64,000 nt of DNA from Rhodohalobacter sp. SW132 (GTDB lineage: Bacteria > Bacteroidota > Rhodothermia > Balneolales > Balneolaceae): assembly GCF_003390325.1 (NCBI RefSeq), contig NZ_QUOK01000003.1, forward strand, positions 1-64,000, in the 5' to 3' direction. Positions 17,560-43,664 of the stretch are shown piece by piece. Each line of letters opens with the position of its first letter. Position 1 is the stretch's first letter. Both the position numbers and the translations under genes were made by a program. Under the pieces are notes generated by a model. That model had not been told where the DNA came from. It made no database searches and saw nothing but the letters and a program-made list of their open reading frames with translations.

Positions 17560-19180
17560 CCCATACGGGAGAGCCGGTGCGGATTTCCGGGGACATCATC
17601 GGGGTTAGTCTACGGATCCGGTGCGGTGGATGATTTTTCGGACAACCCCTCGGTGGGTTCATTGATTCTGCGGAATTCATCGTCTCGGGGTTCCTGTTTT
17701 TGATATCCGACGTTTTCCCGGGGTTTGCAACCCCGGGCTGTTGATTTGCGCCCCGTTCGGGGCTGGATTATAAGACCTACCATAAATCGAGGTAAATTAT
17801 ATGGTACGAAATCAATTGCACTTGAAACATTCGATTGGTCTTCTATCATTATTTGGCACACATTTGATTTTTTCGGGAGCTGATCCTAGAGGGGACATAT
17901 GTTTATAGCCGGTTTAACGGATGTTCATCAAGCATTACGATGTCCGGACACCGGCCCTGGAAGGGCCCAACGTGCATAGCCCCGGGTGAAGCACGATGCA
18001 ATCGAGCGAAACCCGGGGATATCATGCGGTAATGGATTCAGGCCATCGGGCAATACATCAACAAAGGATTGGGAATTACATCCGATGGCCGTTCAACGAT
18101 TGTGATCAACGGATTCGGTGTGATGGATGATTTTTCGGACAACCCCTCGGTGGGTTCATTGATTCTGCGGAATTTATCGCCTCGGGATGCTTGGTTTTTA
18201 TGCCCTACATATTCCCGGGGTTGCAACCCCGGGCTGTTGATTTGCACCCCGTTTGGGGCTGGATTATAAGACCTACCATAAATAGAGGTAAATTATATGG
18301 TTCGAAATTAATCGCCCTTGAAACATTCGATTGGTCTTCTATCATTGTTTGGCCCACATTTGATTTTTTCGGGAGCTGATCCTAGAGGGGAAATATGTTT
18401 ATAGCCGGGTTAACGGATGTCCATGAAGCGATGTCCGGACACCGGCCCTGGAAGGGCCAAACGTGCATAGCCCCGGGTAAAGCACGATGAAATCGGGCAT
18501 AACCCGGGGGAATGATGCGGCAATATATTCGGGCTATCGGGCGATGCATCAACTAAGGATTGGGAATTGCATCCGATGGCGGTTCACAGAGATTGATCAA
18601 CGGATTCGATGCGGTGGTGGGTTATTCGGTCAACCTCTCGGTGGGGGTCATTGATTCTGCGGAATTCATCGCCTCGGGGTTCCTGTTTTTGATATCCGAC
18701 GTTTTCCCGGGGTTTGCAACCCCGGGCTGTTGATTTGCGCCCCGTTCGGGGCTGGATTATATAACCTACCATAAATCGAGGTAAATTATATGGTACGAAA
18801 TAAATCACTCTTGAAACTTTCGATTGGTCTTCTATCATTGTTTGGCCCACATTTGATTTTTTCGAGACGTGGACCAGAGGGGACAAATGTTTGTAACCGG
18901 GTAACGGTTGTCCATCAACCATTGCAATGTTCAGAAAACGGCCCTGAAAGGGCCAAACGTGCATAGCCCCGGGTGAAGCACGATGCAATCGGGCGGAGCC
19001 CGGGGAGATGATGTGACAATAGATTCGGGCCATCGGGCGATGCATCAACGAAGGATTGGGAATTATATCCGATGGCTGTTCACAGATATTAATCAGCGGA
19101 TCGAGTGTGGTGGATGTTTTCTCGTATAATGCCTCGGTTAATTTGTTCAACGGATCATATCCCGGTAGAATTTTCTTAGA
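17560..19180 (+). repeat. Array B: three to four copies of the same long hairpin-rich repeat
   Basis: The unit of array A continues here in the same orientation, with anchors TTTATAGCC at 17902 and 18398 and TTTGTAACC at 18890 (spacings 496 and 492 bp), plus a partial unit before 17902. The copies here are more alike to each other than to those in A, for example all share GGATTATAAGACCTACCATA or a close variant after the GCCCCGTTCGGGGC hairpin. The perfect palindrome at 18214-18233 (CCCGGGGTTGC and its complement) is diagnostic. The last unit decays toward 19200. No gene is recognised inside. Confidence 0.85.
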
Positions 19181-19351: not shown

Positions 19352-21805
19352 TTACCGTCGAATCTGGAAAATCGTATTGGTGACGATGGCCGCCATGGAA
19401 ACGATCGTTGAATAGATCGCAATCCTTTCCTGCGGACTCATTCGTTCAATCTCTTCTTCTCTCGGAATCACAACTGTTGCTCCCGGTTCAAGGGATGGAT
19501 CGTTCCGGATGAACAGAAAACGTTTCGACCGGTCTACTTCACCATTGGCATAAACAACATAGGTTCTTCTTTCCTGCGCCCGGTCTGTAAATCCGCCGGC
19601 ACGATTGATTGCATCCCGCACAGACATCCCGTCATCATAACGAATACTCACGGGAAAAAGAACCTCTCCTTCTACCCGGATGGTCTGCAGCTCTTGCGGT
19701 ATATGGAGAACATCACCGGGCTCGAGACGTAAATCCTGGGGGCCACCCGGATTTTGAAGAATATCAGCCAATCGGATTCCAACCCGGGTGTTGCTCCTAT
19801 CCTCAACTTCAAACAGTTCATCTGCTATATCAAGATCCTCCAGGGATTCTTCATCCCGATCGATCTGACGGGTAAGTGAAGCTCCGCGGGGATAGGCATA
19901 ATCAGAGAGTCCGCCTGACCATTGAATCAGATCACTGATTCGTGCATCACGTTTTTCCAGAACATAATTGCCGGGAAAATTCACTTCGCCGTCCACTTCT
20001 ACGGTTTGCTGTTCACGATAATTAGGCTGACGACGCACAAACACCTGGTCAAACGGCTGCAGTACAAAATCTTCCTGACCGTCTACAAACTCCAGGTTTT
20101 GATTTACCTCAAATTCAAATCTTTCAGCGAGCTGATTGCCTTTTATAAAACGATCGAGTCCTGTCATTCGACGGGCGACCTCCACTCTGTAGGGCGCAGC
20201 AGATTCCCGGAATCCATCCGCAAGATAGATCGCATCACTGACTGTCAGGTTTTCAACAAAATCAAACTCACCGGCTTCATTCACGGCACCGCTTACCCGA
20301 ATCGTATACTCTTCCCGCATATCAAACAGAGAAGTGATCCGAACAACATCATCACGCCTGAGTTCGATATCTGCAGCTCTGCCTTCCAGCACATCATCAA
20401 CAGAGAATGCAACAGATTCGGTTGTCAGATTATCACGGGTTCTCAGAATGATTCCTCGCTGCCTGTAGGCATCTTCCCTTACACCTTCCGCTTTTTCGAT
20501 CAGATCCGTTAATGTCATGCCCTCACTCAGCTCAAACTCACCTTCACGAAATACAGCTCCCTCTATCTCCACACGGTTTTCAAACCTTTCAAGGAGCTCA
20601 CCTACACGAAGTTCATCACCGGCCCGCATAACCAGGTCGCCGCCTTCCGGCCAGCTGACATCCGATATACTTCGCTGCACGTCCGTTGATCGGCGCAGAA
20701 CCAGCCGCCGGGTATAGGCATTCTCCGTAAATCCGGATGTAAATTCAATCAGATCGCTGAGAGTTTCGCCCTCTTTCATCTCAAAGATGCCGGGTCGTTT
20801 AACTTCACCCCTCAGACGAACCCTGTTGATGTATGGATCAATTTTAATGATATCCTGGTCTCTCAGCCGGATATTGTCGCTTTGATCCCCGTATACCAGG
20901 AAATCGTAAATATCGAGTGTAGCTGCTACCTCCTGTCCGCGAATGATCTGGATATTCCGGAAAGTACCCGAATCCGAGGGCCCTCCGGCAGCATAAAGTG
21001 CGTTAAAAACTGTGGATAAGGACGAGACGGTATAGGTACCCGGCTGCATCGCTTCTCCCATAATTGTTACTTTAATACTGCGAACATTTCCAATGGAAAC
21101 CTCAGCAAAGGTATTTGCGTTTTCGGGCTGATTGGGTCTCAGGCCTGAATAAATATTCTGTAACCGGTCAAGAATTCGGGTCCGTGCGTCCTGCATACTG
21201 AGGCCGTCGAGCTGAATGGGGCCAAGGTTTGGAATTCGGATTACCCCCTCAGGTGAGACCGTCAGCCGGTAATTCGCTTCTGCTGCTCCCCAGATGTTAA
21301 TAACAATTTCGTCCCCTGCACCGAGTGTATAATCTATCGGGGTTGGGATATTCATGGAGGGTTCAAAGGAAATTGCACGATCACGGAAAATATTTGCACC
21401 AAACACCCTGCGTTCATGGGCCAGGCTGTCCGGCAGCTCTATCGACCGGAGCACTCTCATTGTATCCTGTTCACCGAAACGTTCACGTTCCCGTTCCCTT
21501 AAAACGTCTGAATCCATGTCTCGATCCCCTGTTCGGACCTGCGTTCTAACCTGATTCAGCCTGTTCCGCAGTTTCGATACTTCACCTGCAGACATCCCCC
21601 TGCTTTGGGCAAGAGCCCCGATTTGCTGGACATTGAGATTTTCCTCCTGTGCGCGCTCCCAAATTTGACGAATCTGCGCGTCGGATAAATTATCAACATT
21701 TACAGACGCAAAATCGATACCACCTATATCTTGTGCTGATAGCTCGAATGAAAAAAAGAAACAGACAAACAGGAGTAATGCACCTGATACTCTAATGAAT
21801 TTCAT
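19352..21805 (-). CDS. SLBB-domain polysaccharide export protein (Wza-like)
   Basis: This 817-residue protein has a signal peptide (ending near residue 25, FELSAQ) and a coiled or helical spacer. The polysaccharide export domain begins near residue 152 (DYTLGAGDEIVINIWGAAEANYRLTVSPEGVIRIPNLGPI). A series of about six SLBB-type ligand-binding beta-grasp repeats follows (RVRLRGEVKRPGIFEMKEGETLSDLI, VEIEGAVFREGEFELSEGMTLTDLI and so on). A hydrophobic helix at the very end could span the outer membrane as in Wza. There is no lipobox Cys, unlike E. coli Wza. It should form the export channel for the polysaccharide made by the locus. It is on the same strand as the biosynthetic genes but separated from them by the T9SS gene and both repeat arrays. 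Confidence 0.9.
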   Translation of the reverse strand: MKFIRVSGALLLFVCFFFSFELSAQDIGGIDFASVNVDNLSDAQIRQIWERAQEENLNVQQIGALAQSRGMSAGEVSKLRNRLNQVRTQVRTGDRDMDSDVLRERERERFGEQDTMRVLRSIELPDSLAHERRVFGANIFRDRAISFEPSMNIPTPIDYTLGAGDEIVINIWGAAEANYRLTVSPEGVIRIPNLGPIQLDGLSMQDARTRILDRLQNIYSGLRPNQPENANTFAEVSIGNVRSIKVTIMGEAMQPGTYTVSSLSTVFNALYAAGGPSDSGTFRNIQIIRGQEVAATLDIYDFLVYGDQSDNIRLRDQDIIKIDPYINRVRLRGEVKRPGIFEMKEGETLSDLIEFTSGFTENAYTRRLVLRRSTDVQRSISDVSWPEGGDLVMRAGDELRVGELLERFENRVEIEGAVFREGEFELSEGMTLTDLIEKAEGVREDAYRQRGIILRTRDNLTTESVAFSVDDVLEGRAADIELRRDDVVRITSLFDMREEYTIRVSGAVNEAGEFDFVENLTVSDAIYLADGFRESAAPYRVEVARRMTGLDRFIKGNQLAERFEFEVNQNLEFVDGQEDFVLQPFDQVFVRRQPNYREQQTVEVDGEVNFPGNYVLEKRDARISDLIQWSGGLSDYAYPRGASLTRQIDRDEESLEDLDIADELFEVEDRSNTRVGIRLADILQNPGGPQDLRLEPGDVLHIPQELQTIRVEGEVLFPVSIRYDDGMSVRDAINRAGGFTDRAQERRTYVVYANGEVDRSKRFLFIRNDPSLEPGATVVIPREEEIERMSPQERIAIYSTIVSMAAIVTNTIFQIRR

Positions 21806-21954
21806 ATACCCGCTTTTATTGATAATAATTTTTGAAACCTGAAAGATAGAAAATTAAAAAGATTTAACGAATGAAGATTTCACTTATCGACAAAAATGAA
21901 AATTTCTAAAATGGAATCGTGAGTGCAGGCGTTGTCTGTGTTGAACTGTTGAGG

Positions 21955-22171
21955 GCGGGCTGCGCCCCGTTGAGTTGTGGAGTGTGGGTTGCACCCACGT
22001 TGAATAGTAGAGCTGTTGAGAGTGATCTGCGCTCACTTGAAGATGTTGAAATCTGTGCCCTCTCAACAATTCAACCTCGCACGTAGTGCGACACTCAACA
22101 GTACACGCAGTGTACATCTCAACAGTTCCACCTCGCGCGCAGCGCGAAACTCAACCGCATGCGCAGCGTGC
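21955..22171. repeat. Array of seven short triloop hairpins with CTCAAC/GTTGAG linkers
   Basis: Seven 13-17 nt inverted repeats lie between the GNAT-like gene and the SLBB exporter gene. The last four (22077-22091, 22101-22115, 22133-22147, 22157-22171) each have a 6-bp stem and a GTA or GCA triloop, spaced 24, 32 and 24 bp. The first three (centres about 21962, 21991 and 22029) have TGC loops, so they are the inverse orientation. Linkers carry CTCAAC on the right side and GTTGAG on the left. Stem sequences differ completely while pairing is kept. The stop codon of the GNAT-like gene lies in the last linker. Confidence 0.85.
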
Positions 22172-22174
22172 CCC

Positions 22175-23317
22175 TCAACAATCCCAGCGATATGTCCGAT
22201 GCGTTTTATGATGATGACACCCAAGCGCTTCGAGGCTTCGCTGCATGAGCCAGTTTTTTTCGCTGATCCACGCTCCTTCTAAGTAATCGAGTGACGGAGC
22301 GGCTTTTTTTGTCATCTGTATTCCGCGCACAAATACTAACGCTTCAAGCCCTTTTTTTCGATACTCCGGCAGAGTTCCAAAGACCAAATTCCGAAGACGA
22401 CGTGCGCGCCGTTTCAATAAAAAAAGTTTTGGGATTTGCCACCAGCGGAGCTTTCCTCCAGTCTCTTTTGATACCTGGTTCAGATCAGGCACTGAAACGA
22501 TAAATGATGCCGGTACTCCATCCACGGATGCGATCAGCACGCTGTCGCGGATCACAATTCGTTTGAGCTGCTGCACCATATCCCGAACGGTTTCCTTTTT
22601 TAGTTCGGTGAATTCCTGCTCGCGATCCACAATATCCTGCTCCGACCATGCCCGGTTATAGATTGTTCGTATCGCTTCGGCATCTTTTTCGGGATTTTTA
22701 AAGTTCACCGGACGAATTTCAACATTCAGTTTCTCCTCAATCCGGTCGGTGATCTTTATCAGCCGTTCGGGCAGCGGCTGGTCGAAATCACGCCGGTAAC
22801 TCCAGTGATCGTCCAGTTGCACCGCCCCGGTTTTTTCAATCAGTTCTTTGTAATACGGGGGATGATAGTGCATGCCGTAAATCGGTTCTTCATCAAAATT
22901 TTCTACCAGAAGTCCCCAGAAGTTATCGTTCTCCCCAAAATTTACCGGTCCCCGAAAAGCACTATATCCGTGTTTTTGATGCCATTCTTTTGCAAACCGG
23001 ATCATATCATCCATCACGGATTGATCATTTATCAGTTCCACAAACCCAAAACCGCCCATCACCGGTTTCAGCACTTTATCTTTTTCAGGATGATTCATCA
23101 CCGCAAACCGCCCCACCATCCGGTTTCCATCAAAAACCAGGTACCGTTCACAGTTGCCCCCTTTGAAAAACGGATTTTTATCCGGATTGAAAATCTTTTC
23201 GATTTCAAACCGAAACGGCGGGATCCAGTTTGGAAACGATTCGTAAATCTGTTTCTGAAAACTGTAAAAAAGATCCACCTGTGATGCGGTTGAAACCTTT
23301 TGATATTGGTATCTCAT
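22175..23317 (-). CDS. GNAT-like acetyltransferase family protein (YghO-like)
   Basis: This 380-residue cytoplasmic protein resembles the YghO-type group of large N-acetyltransferase-like proteins. Visible family-like blocks are WIPPFRFEIEKIFNPDKNPFF (about residues 32-52), GRFAVMNHPEKDK, and GYSAFRGPVNFGENDNFWGLLVENFDEEPIYGMHYHPPYY. The C-terminal GNAT-like stretch contains FGTLPEYRKKGLEALVFVRGIQM and SWISEKN-like residues (LEGAWISEKNWLM). The start is the ATG at 23317; the codon before it is a TTG. Substrate is unknown. Its stop codon falls inside the triloop hairpin array, which therefore forms its 3' UTR. It may be co-transcribed with the SLBB gene 370 bp downstream, but a functional link is not shown. 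Confidence 0.65.
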   Translation of the reverse strand: MRYQYQKVSTASQVDLFYSFQKQIYESFPNWIPPFRFEIEKIFNPDKNPFFKGGNCERYLVFDGNRMVGRFAVMNHPEKDKVLKPVMGGFGFVELINDQSVMDDMIRFAKEWHQKHGYSAFRGPVNFGENDNFWGLLVENFDEEPIYGMHYHPPYYKELIEKTGAVQLDDHWSYRRDFDQPLPERLIKITDRIEEKLNVEIRPVNFKNPEKDAEAIRTIYNRAWSEQDIVDREQEFTELKKETVRDMVQQLKRIVIRDSVLIASVDGVPASFIVSVPDLNQVSKETGGKLRWWQIPKLFLLKRRARRLRNLVFGTLPEYRKKGLEALVFVRGIQMTKKAAPSLDYLEGAWISEKNWLMQRSLEALGCHHHKTHRTYRWDC

Positions 23318-23568
23318 CAATGTTCAGTTATTCGTACATTTTAATTTGTCACCCGGCTGCTTATTTCCAACCGTCACGGGCAAGTATACTCAATCCGATC
23401 TACTTTATCGGATTTTTTTGCAGAAATGATCTGCCGGCCGGTTATAAGTCGAGTGATAAGATGAATATTCTGCTCCGTATATGGAATGAACTACCTCGGG
23501 GCAGAGCCCACGAAGTATCAAATTGGTTTCCATACCTTTTTGTTCGATATGGAGTTTATTCTGGAGTG

Positions 23569-41929: not shown

Positions 41930-41990
41930 CATCGGATGAGTTTTTCGAAAATCAGAGAACCATTGGTTCAATATAGAATTCGTGGATGTT
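41930..41990. repeat. Partial CATCGGATGAG element, copy 4
   Basis: It matches the left 60 bp of the element at 30979-31052 (ATCGGATGAGTTTT...AATATA...ATTC.TGGATG) and then runs straight into the IS-associated module L1 at about 41991. The right inverted end is missing. Confidence 0.65.
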
Positions 41991-42420
41991 AATAATCCCG
42001 AAGGGATTTAACGTGAATAGCCCACCCGAAGGGTCGGGTTCTTCGACTGGGTGAAACTCGGGGAAATTAGCAGGGCAAAAAAACACCAACCCCGGAGTGG
42101 GTTGAACAACACGCCTATGTTCACATCAGATATTTCTCATTAAATTCTACCCGGTGTTTTTGTAATACGGAAATATGTACATATCTATTCAGAAATCGTT
42201 AATTCAACCCCATTCGGGGTTGTCGGACTACCGGCCATCTCCCAATCCCCGAGTTTCACCCGGGGCTATTCACTTTATACTCCTTCGGAGTATGTGTGTG
42301 AATTGGCTGGGAAAGCGTCATTCCATAGTATCACAAATAAATAGATTCCAAATCGTTTATCCGGGATTTTGCAGGAGACATCGACCCTAAAGCAGAATCC
42401 CAGGATCTTCCCGCTATCTA
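41991..42420. mobile_element. tnpA-deleted derivative of the adjacent IS200/IS605-like element
   Basis: Module L1 (41991-42109, AATCCCGAAGGGATT hairpin) is followed at 42121-42167 by a copy of the last 15 codons of the transposase gene. It then jumps to a copy of the transposase upstream region (about 42171-42196 matching 43041-43083) and module R1 (42197-42420). The internal 430 bp of the gene are missing, so this is a MITE-like deletion product. Confidence 0.8.
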
Positions 42421-42452
42421 TACTCGTCGATAATTTTCCACTCTCAAAAGAA

Positions 42453-43320
42453 TGGATATTGATAATCCCGGAGGGATTTAACGTGAATAGCCCCGGGTGA
42501 AACTCGGGGAAATTAGCAGGGCAAAAAAACACCAACCCCGAAGCGGGTTGAACTGCATGCCTTTGTTCACATCAAATATTTCTCATTAAATTCTACCCGG
42601 TGTTCTTGTAATAATGTGATCAACTCCTCCCGGTAAGAAATGGTTTTATGATGAGTCTCCTGTTTTTTCACATATTCAATCAGCCGATTTTTTTCTTTAA
42701 TAGAATAGGTAAATGCGGAATACCCTTCTTGCCATGCTGTAAATTCCGGAAACAACAAATTTGACTTGATATACGAATTACAAGAAACTTTGATGTCTTT
42801 TACCAATGACGATACTGAAATTGAAGGATGAACATGAGTAACAATGTGCAAATGATCTTCTACCCCATTGATTCTATACAAATGGCATTTATTGTTTTTC
42901 AATATTCCCCAAATGTATTTAAAAAGCTCTTCACGATTGTCTTTCAAAAGGGTTGGTGTTCTTAGTTTTGTACTAAAGATAATCTGATAAAGGATTTGTG
43001 TATGCGTACTCATGATGGGTTCTCTCTACTTTATTAATTTGAAATAGATAAAATGTACAAATTTATTCATAAATCATGAATTCAACCCCATTCGGGGTTG
43101 TCGGACTACCGACCCTCTCCCAATCCCCGAGTTTCACCCGGGGCTATTCACATTTTACTCCTTCGGAGTATGTGTGTGAATTGGTTGGAAAGCGTCACTC
43201 CATAGCATCACAAATAAATAGATAGCAAATCGTTTATCCGGGATTTTGCAGGAGACATCGACCCTTAAGCAGAATCCCAGGATCCTCCAGCTTTCTATAC
43301 TCGTAGATAATTTTCCATTC
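42453..43320 (-). mobile_element. IS200/IS605-like element with full transposase
   Basis: Module L2 (42453-42554), the transposase gene (42567-43013) and module R2 (43078-43320) repeat the layout of the neighbouring derivative. Ends have several hairpins: AATCCC-GGA-GGGATT on the left, AACCCC-ATTC-GGGGTT and ACTCC-TTC-GGAGT on the right. There are no terminal inverted repeats, as expected for this single-strand transposon family. Exact ends are not resolved. A third left module, L3, follows at 43330-43455. Confidence 0.75.
42567..43013 (-). CDS. tnpA: IS200/IS605 family transposase TnpA (Y1 HUH)
   Basis: This 148-residue protein is a Y1 single-strand transposase of the length typical for IS200/IS605 TnpA. 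The HUH metal motif is in GVEDHLHIVTHVHP (HLH at about residues 53-55). YSAFTYSIKEKNRLIEYVKKQETHH near residues 108-132 contains the helix that carries the catalytic Tyr (Tyr124 in EYVKKQ by position). It is intact and probably active. RAYT (REP-associated) transposases are related, but the short length favours a mobile IS enzyme. Surrounding hairpins are likely its binding sites. No tnpB accessory gene is present. Confidence 0.9.
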   Translation of the reverse strand: MSTHTQILYQIIFSTKLRTPTLLKDNREELFKYIWGILKNNKCHLYRINGVEDHLHIVTHVHPSISVSSLVKDIKVSCNSYIKSNLLFPEFTAWQEGYSAFTYSIKEKNRLIEYVKKQETHHKTISYREELITLLQEHRVEFNEKYLM

Positions 43321-43329
43321 TCAAAAGAA

Positions 43330-43455
43330 TAGATATTGATAATCCCGGAGGGATTTAACATGAATAGCCCACCCGAAGGGTCGGGTTCTTCGACTGGGTG
43401 AAACTCGGGGAAATTAGCAGGGCAAAAAAACACCAACCCCGGAGTGGGTTGAACA
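43330..43455. repeat. Extra left module L3 of the IS200-like element
   Basis: It is nearly identical to L1 (GATAATCCCGGAGGG..., CCCACCCGAAGGGTCGGG hairpin, GGTGAAACTCGGGG, ACCAACCCCGGAGTGGGTTGAAC) and not followed by a gene. It shows that the element has been duplicated or transposed locally. Confidence 0.75.
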
Positions 43456-43664
43456 GATGTCAGTTCTCTACTCAAAATTCCAAATACGCAAAATACATCC
43501 CTCCGTTTTCATTCTTACAGAACGATATTTTTTATTGTGCATTCAATATCTGTTTAGGTATCTTTTGACCTGTCTTTCGCAGGGCAAAAAATAACTATAG
43601 CTACCTGCACGTTACGGGAACCGTTCAACCGAACTGTATCAACATTTAACTGTTCAAACGTTTT

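Follow-up and report, generated by a model that had tools for sequence, protein, structure and literature searches.

The 64-kb window (the whole stretch of DNA analysed, 64,000 nucleotides of Rhodohalobacter sp. SW132) contains, between two co-directional genes, an array of small hairpins which probably belongs to a dispersed REP-like family of modular hairpin arrays in Balneolaceae; in this family entire modules would be gained, lost and exchanged between direct-repeat linkers. Several of its features were directly observed: the arrays are dispersed, their loops are specific to one strand, they avoid divergent regions, two relatives lack the array at one locus, and sister species differ by entire modules. 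The full extent of the array is 21940-22179; the first-pass annotation had located it at 21955-22171, where it is indeed found, albeit with both ends cut short. The array and its neighbouring genes comprise the following features.

21940-22179, no strand assigned: whole array; left half in minus orientation, spacer at 22038-22061, right half in plus orientation; folds as a unit (z about -6)
21940-21953, minus strand: linker pair GTTGAACTGTTGAG (CTCAACAGTTCAAC on the minus strand), the exact dispersed 14-mer (16 genome sites, 0 in the reversed control)
21953-21967, minus strand: weak hairpin with a TGC loop on the plus strand (GCA on the minus strand); the stem has 4 bp if the loop is TGC, or 5 bp if the loop is 5 nt long
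21984-21998, minus strand: hairpin GTGGGT-GCA-ACCCAC (read on the minus strand), perfect, 6 bp
21999-22020, minus strand: linkers GTTGAATA GTAGAGCT GTTGAG
22021-22037, minus strand: hairpin AGTGAGC-GCA-GATCACT (read on the minus strand), one mismatch
22062-22075, plus strand: linker pair CTCAACAATTCAAC
22077-22091, plus strand: hairpin TCGCAC-GTA-GTGCGA, perfect
22094-22099, plus strand: linker CTCAAC
22101-22115, plus strand: hairpin GTACAC-GCA-GTGTAC, perfect
22118-22131, plus strand: linker pair CTCAACAGTTCCAC
22133-22147, plus strand: hairpin TCGCGC-GCA-GCGCGA, perfect
22150-22155, plus strand: linker CTCAAC
22157-22171, plus strand: hairpin GCATGC-GCA-GCGTGC, one T.G pair
22174-22179, plus strand: last linker CTCAAC; the minus-strand gene has its TGA stop (22175-22177) in the TCA of this linker
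22175-23320, minus strand: upstream gene encoding 381 aa, which has no Pfam match, resembles an acetyltransferase by eye and is found throughout the family
19352-21805, minus strand: downstream gene, an 817-aa SLBB/Poly_export polysaccharide export protein

From 22062 onwards the right half reads linker pair, hairpin, linker, hairpin, linker pair, hairpin, linker, hairpin, linker, with four plus-strand hairpins carrying GTA or GCA loops, CTCAAC-type linkers and hairpin starts spaced by 24, 32 and 24 nt. The left half (before 22038) holds three hairpins in the opposite orientation, their loops being TGC on the plus and GCA on the minus strand. Loops, CTCAAC/GTTGAG linkers and spacing are as the first-pass annotation had described them, while its seven perfect or near-perfect hairpins amount to four perfect ones, two with one T.G pair or mismatch, and the weak leftmost one (21953-21967). 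The stop codon of the upstream gene, which it had placed inside the array, lies in the last CTCAAC linker (22175-22177), just past 22171; an array of this kind can thus provide a stop codon. Perfect triloop hairpins with a stem of at least 6 bp occur four times in 256 nt, compared to a mean of 0.07 and a maximum of 2 in 2000 dinucleotide shuffles. As the two halves are complementary via their linkers, either strand folds as a branched, long imperfect inverted repeat with side hairpins, and the fold z-scores of the array stretch against shuffles are -6.3 and -5.6 as DNA and -6.3 and -5.9 as RNA.

The search of the genome for CTCAAC-hairpin patterns, which had been proposed from the sequence, revealed a dispersed family. 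The exact 14-mer CTCAACARTTCAAC is present at 16 sites of the 5.08-Mb SW132 genome and at none in the reversed control, and at 39 sites of the same genome when up to one mismatch is allowed. A covariance model of the unit matches 22 places in the genome at E<=1 (the E-values of this model are rough), and further copies are also found by BLAST; since the hairpin set of the model was chosen for pairing, its covariation score is not independent evidence. Within the SW132 genome the stems, which had been described as entirely different, fall for the most part into two types, TCRCRC and GYAYRC, which alternate with a period of 56 nt. Of 394 genomes sampled evenly across the phylum, four have strict model matches, and all four belong to the same family; a more sensitive model search of 37 close relatives gave matches in seven (G045, G050, G051, G056, G058, G059 and G062), all of one sister genus (g12) in that family. 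The array-bearing relatives with named contigs are Balneolaceae; the relatives are draft metagenome bins, and several of their arrays are located close to the end of a contig. G059 has strings of up to nine different hairpins joined by (A)CTCAAC linkers, and the pattern CTCAACN{9,24}ACTCAAC is found 39 times in this genome vs 0 in the control. No earlier description of this hairpin-array family was found in the open-access papers searched.

Bare tandem runs of the 8-nt linker YTCAACAR are present in many other Bacteroidota, mostly without hairpins, and the pattern matches in genome contigs outside Balneolaceae are mostly such runs or chance. Pattern matches in viral contigs, likewise, look like chance or bare linkers, and at distant-blastn sensitivity the array has no match indicative of a phage or plasmid origin. 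Long intergenic runs of YTCAACAR octamers, or of heptamers such as TTAACCC, were seen in Saprospiraceae, Prevotellaceae, Algoriphagus and others (loci L129, L169, L177, L205 and further ones), and some of the Saprospiraceae runs carry GGCC-GAA-GGCC hairpins.

A module of the family is an 11-26 nt palindrome (15-17 nt in the array of the window) between direct copies of the linker (A)YTCAAC, which is sometimes doubled to CTCAACARTTCAAC. The linkers follow each other at 8 nt when bare and at about 18-34 nt, the length of the repeat unit, when a hairpin is enclosed, and in many arrays two halves stand head to head, their linkers reading outward. In a sample of 74 linker-to-linker segments, unselected for pairing albeit not fully blind (the loci were retrieved via linker or model searches), 50% score as hairpins vs 2.6% of shuffles; many of the remaining segments are of the GTGAGC...GCGAAC types, in which the paired arms include two tandem G.A mismatches. 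The G059 and G050 arrays yielded 60 distinct modules, which have no conserved stem sequence and in which G.A/A.G make up 50 of the 97 mismatch cells. A second repeat, CCAGTGCATTTCTGG-T-CCCGACCCATCGGG with its variants, appears to sit as an insertion within an array hairpin's loop (ATTTCGC ... GCGGAAT); this repeat (L044 on contig C17 of SW132, L047, L048, L090 and L104) itself has differing stems.

The loops are strand-specific and mostly of the form C(GNA)G, with AGCT or GGCT loops in the longer G059 modules. Where a perfect triloop hairpin has a linker at each end, its loop is always GNA (8/8 in SW132 and 5/5 in the relatives, copies which share descent and are not independent trials); among hairpins elsewhere, GNA and TNC loops are equally frequent. 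The C(GNA)G triloop is known from the early promoter hairpins of phage N4, whose extrusion under supercoiling requires a C-G closing pair and a loop with G as its first and A as its last base, and in which the loop takes its stable form on one strand only (PMC4496689). The N4 promoters have single hairpins, whereas here they form arrays. The DNA parameters used give GNA and TNC loops equal energies on perfect stems, therefore the case for a strand preference rests on the loop counts and the N4 literature. By analogy with N4, the C(GNA)G motif suggests that the arrays may fold at the DNA level, and the constant loop orientation, together with the retained tandem G.A pairs, suggests recognition of the fold by some factor and counts against passive slippage as the whole account.

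How the stems change can be followed in the sister species G059 and G050. Their HflC is identical at 314 of 315 positions (stop codon counted) and the hflC locus shows 95.1% nucleotide identity over 2,454 bp, ending at the array, which has seven modules in G059 vs four in G050 with differing contents; both genomes are draft bins, and the G059 hflC array is near a contig end, hence misassembly could contribute to this difference. No array follows hflC in G054 and G045. At a second locus the flanks are 96.2% and 92.9% identical and the first and last modules are common to G059 and G050; G059 has 42 nt more, which are exactly two modules with their linkers. Module types recur across arrays, ACGCCGAAGGCGT and GTGCGAAGCAC each being found in six G059/G050 stretches. 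With flanks 93-96% identical, the two sister species thus differ by entire modules at one and the same locus; the stem differences therefore arise largely from turnover of whole modules, and every module type stays a hairpin.

The first-pass annotation had taken compensatory stem change as a sign of selection on structure. Hairpin form, loop type and linker are in fact kept while stems change across the dispersed family in several genomes; the sister species, however, differ by whole modules, and three homologous copies in the SW132 genome (C1:832301, C5:221840 and C5:225404) carry point changes which break stem pairs; some array copies therefore decay. The unpaired drift of stems that it had named as a refutation is not what the sister genomes show: whole modules are gained, lost or swapped, with the hairpin form kept.

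Across the family, simple ORF calls place 19 array sites between co-directional, 10 between convergent and one between divergent genes: the arrays are mostly intergenic and avoid divergent intergenic regions. The array of the window sits where gene order is not conserved. In each relative read, the 381-aa gene is followed by a different sequence, and among the 30 loci read no orthologous site for this array, empty sites included, was found. There is no evidence for an array function specific to the two flanking genes. At L056 and L092 a stretch close to AAAAGTCCAAACTTTTGCGCGGATAGTCCAA, common to two genera, follows arrays and precedes genes, possibly as a site of regulation.

This placement recalls REPs, which lie between co-directional or convergent genes and avoid divergent promoters (PMC3733652). 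REPs, BIMEs and REPINs (PMC3733652, PMC3116915) are short dispersed extragenic palindromes, often head-to-head and downstream of genes, which are able to provide a stop codon, and the CGTC REPs are likewise without a known transposase. The arrays comply with this description in unit length (about 18-34 nt, within a 20-40 bp palindromic unit), in dispersal (the 22 model matches in SW132), in their mostly intergenic position, in their unidirectional or convergent placement near gene 3' ends (19/10/1) and in the opposite-orientation pairing of several head-to-head arrays. They differ in that the stems vary from unit to unit (the 60 distinct modules), in that YTCAAC flanks both sides with no unpaired GTAG or CGTC tag at one end, in that up to nine different palindromes are strung together, and in that no RAYT (Y1_Tnp) gene flanked by the same repeat, as in the GTAG class, was found at the Y1 loci examined. 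As tag, adjacent RAYT and conserved stem all fail, the arrays behave like REPs/BIMEs but are not GTAG/CGTC REPs.

Other known systems show partial likeness. The tandem heptamer repeats of the TAACTGA type in cyanobacteria, Beggiatoaceae and Bacteroidetes (PMC4679880) are also short intergenic direct repeats, and the cyanobacterial repeat module SDR5 (cited in PMC4390886) is one of the small repeat modules inserted at short motifs. Here, however, the linker is of 8 or 7 nt and not TAACTGA, nearly every interval holds a palindrome with a defined loop, and the spacing is not that of a 7-nt tandem direct repeat. TIGR arrays (PMC12045711), a system with a Tas (Nop) protein, likewise alternate constant and variable parts in tandem, yet their 8-12 nt edge and loop repeats enclose 9-nt spacers, A and B, which do not covary, whereas the loops here are of 3-5 nt and the arms pair.

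Movement of the arrays as a miniature element by a dedicated single-strand DNA enzyme (an HUH/Y1 RAYT or another) that recognises linker and GNA hairpin is the best-placed alternative, though an unlikely one. Dispersed copies, head-to-head pairs resembling REP dimers and strand-specific loops speak for it, as do the hflC array, present in G050 and G059 and absent in G054 and G045, and the similar copies with common flanks in SW132 and G045. Nevertheless, none of the Y1 transposase loci examined in SW132 and relatives carries an array, which goes against the hotspot for a single-strand transposase that the first-pass annotation had envisaged; the array-rich draft G051 has no Y1 match, and the 139 ORFs near arrays include no recurrent transposase or recombinase family. 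A RAYT-linked REP was rejected on similar grounds, the better-matching Y1 genes of SW132 lying amid their own, different hairpins. We consider it about equally unlikely that the arrays are an actively shuffled hairpin-cassette system, in which a putative single-strand DNA enzyme or recombinase would recognise the (A)CTCAAC linker and the GNA hairpin on one strand and insert, remove or exchange modules from a genome-wide library.

The Y1 loci of SW132 have repeats of their own. On contigs C10, C1 and C7 (L051-L054) each Y1 gene is amid its own family of short hairpins, and beside the C7 gene there are triloop hairpins which also have differing stems (GCAGC-GGA-GCTGC and CACAGTGC-AGA-GCACTGTG). 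In the window, a RAYT-type Y1 transposase (42567-43013, minus strand) lies within 41985-43475 between direct repeats, 142-184 nt units which are 92-93% alike and 877-878 nt apart, with a 124-nt unit present three times; REP-like hairpins also occur in these repeats and have no relation to the array. Elsewhere in the window (17612-19114) a 496-bp unit stands in three tandem copies (85% matches) with CCCGGGGTTGCAAACCCCGGG-type hairpins.

An RNA element is doubtful; in this reading the mRNA between the two genes would be protected, processed or attenuated by the hairpins, and the stem changes would be compensatory under selection on RNA structure. The flanking genes are co-directional, the 256-nt RNA folds far better than shuffles, and the arrays of the family are mostly in co-directional or convergent positions. 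However, both orientations occur in one array, which puts GNA loops on mRNA and antisense strand alike, and the neighbouring genes vary from array to array. No terminator-like site was found in the array (21940-22179), contrary to the suggested role as a transcription attenuator, and the 64-kb window has no Rfam match at gathering score. The whole-module differences between sister species and the broken pairs in homologous copies are likewise at odds with compensatory change.

That the matched changes come purely from template switching at quasi-palindromes, with neither selection nor recognition, is improbable. Template switching does make multi-base matched changes without selection (PMC8794818), and the arms match closely in most modules, but it leaves the constant linker and the retained tandem G.A pairs unexplained, as well as the loop orientation, loop inversion being an expected product. 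Integron-like recombination sites moving gene cassettes can practically be dismissed: ACTCAAC fits RYYYAAC, and arrays separate toxin-antitoxin-like gene pairs (by eye) on C7 and polysaccharide-type genes on C17, but the linkers are direct repeats round each hairpin and not the inverted R''/R' pair of attC (RYYYAAC ... GTTRRRY round one imperfect hairpin), and many arrays have ordinary chromosomal genes, hflC among them, as neighbours. On C7 (L046, 4500-10700) the toxin-antitoxin-like pairs form a run, with hairpin arrays between some of them.

For a dispersed family changing by whole modules, we propose the following course. While the DNA is replicated or negatively supercoiled, mini-hairpins would form in a row on the linker strand, and the linkers, being short direct repeats, would permit slippage, strand switching or recombination which delete, duplicate or swap whole modules; single-strand slippage or strand switching is the probable route. 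Template switching inside a hairpin (PMC8794818) could keep the arms matched, and the arrays would survive chiefly at sites downstream of genes, where little harm is done.

When stems change in a compensatory way, this is usually taken as proof of a selected structure. Here, stems at one site can differ via module replacement, which calls for caution with covariation arguments in repeats. With its constant linkers, strand-specific extrudable loop and fast turnover, the family is a tractable natural system for the spread and change of bacterial palindromic repeats without a RAYT.
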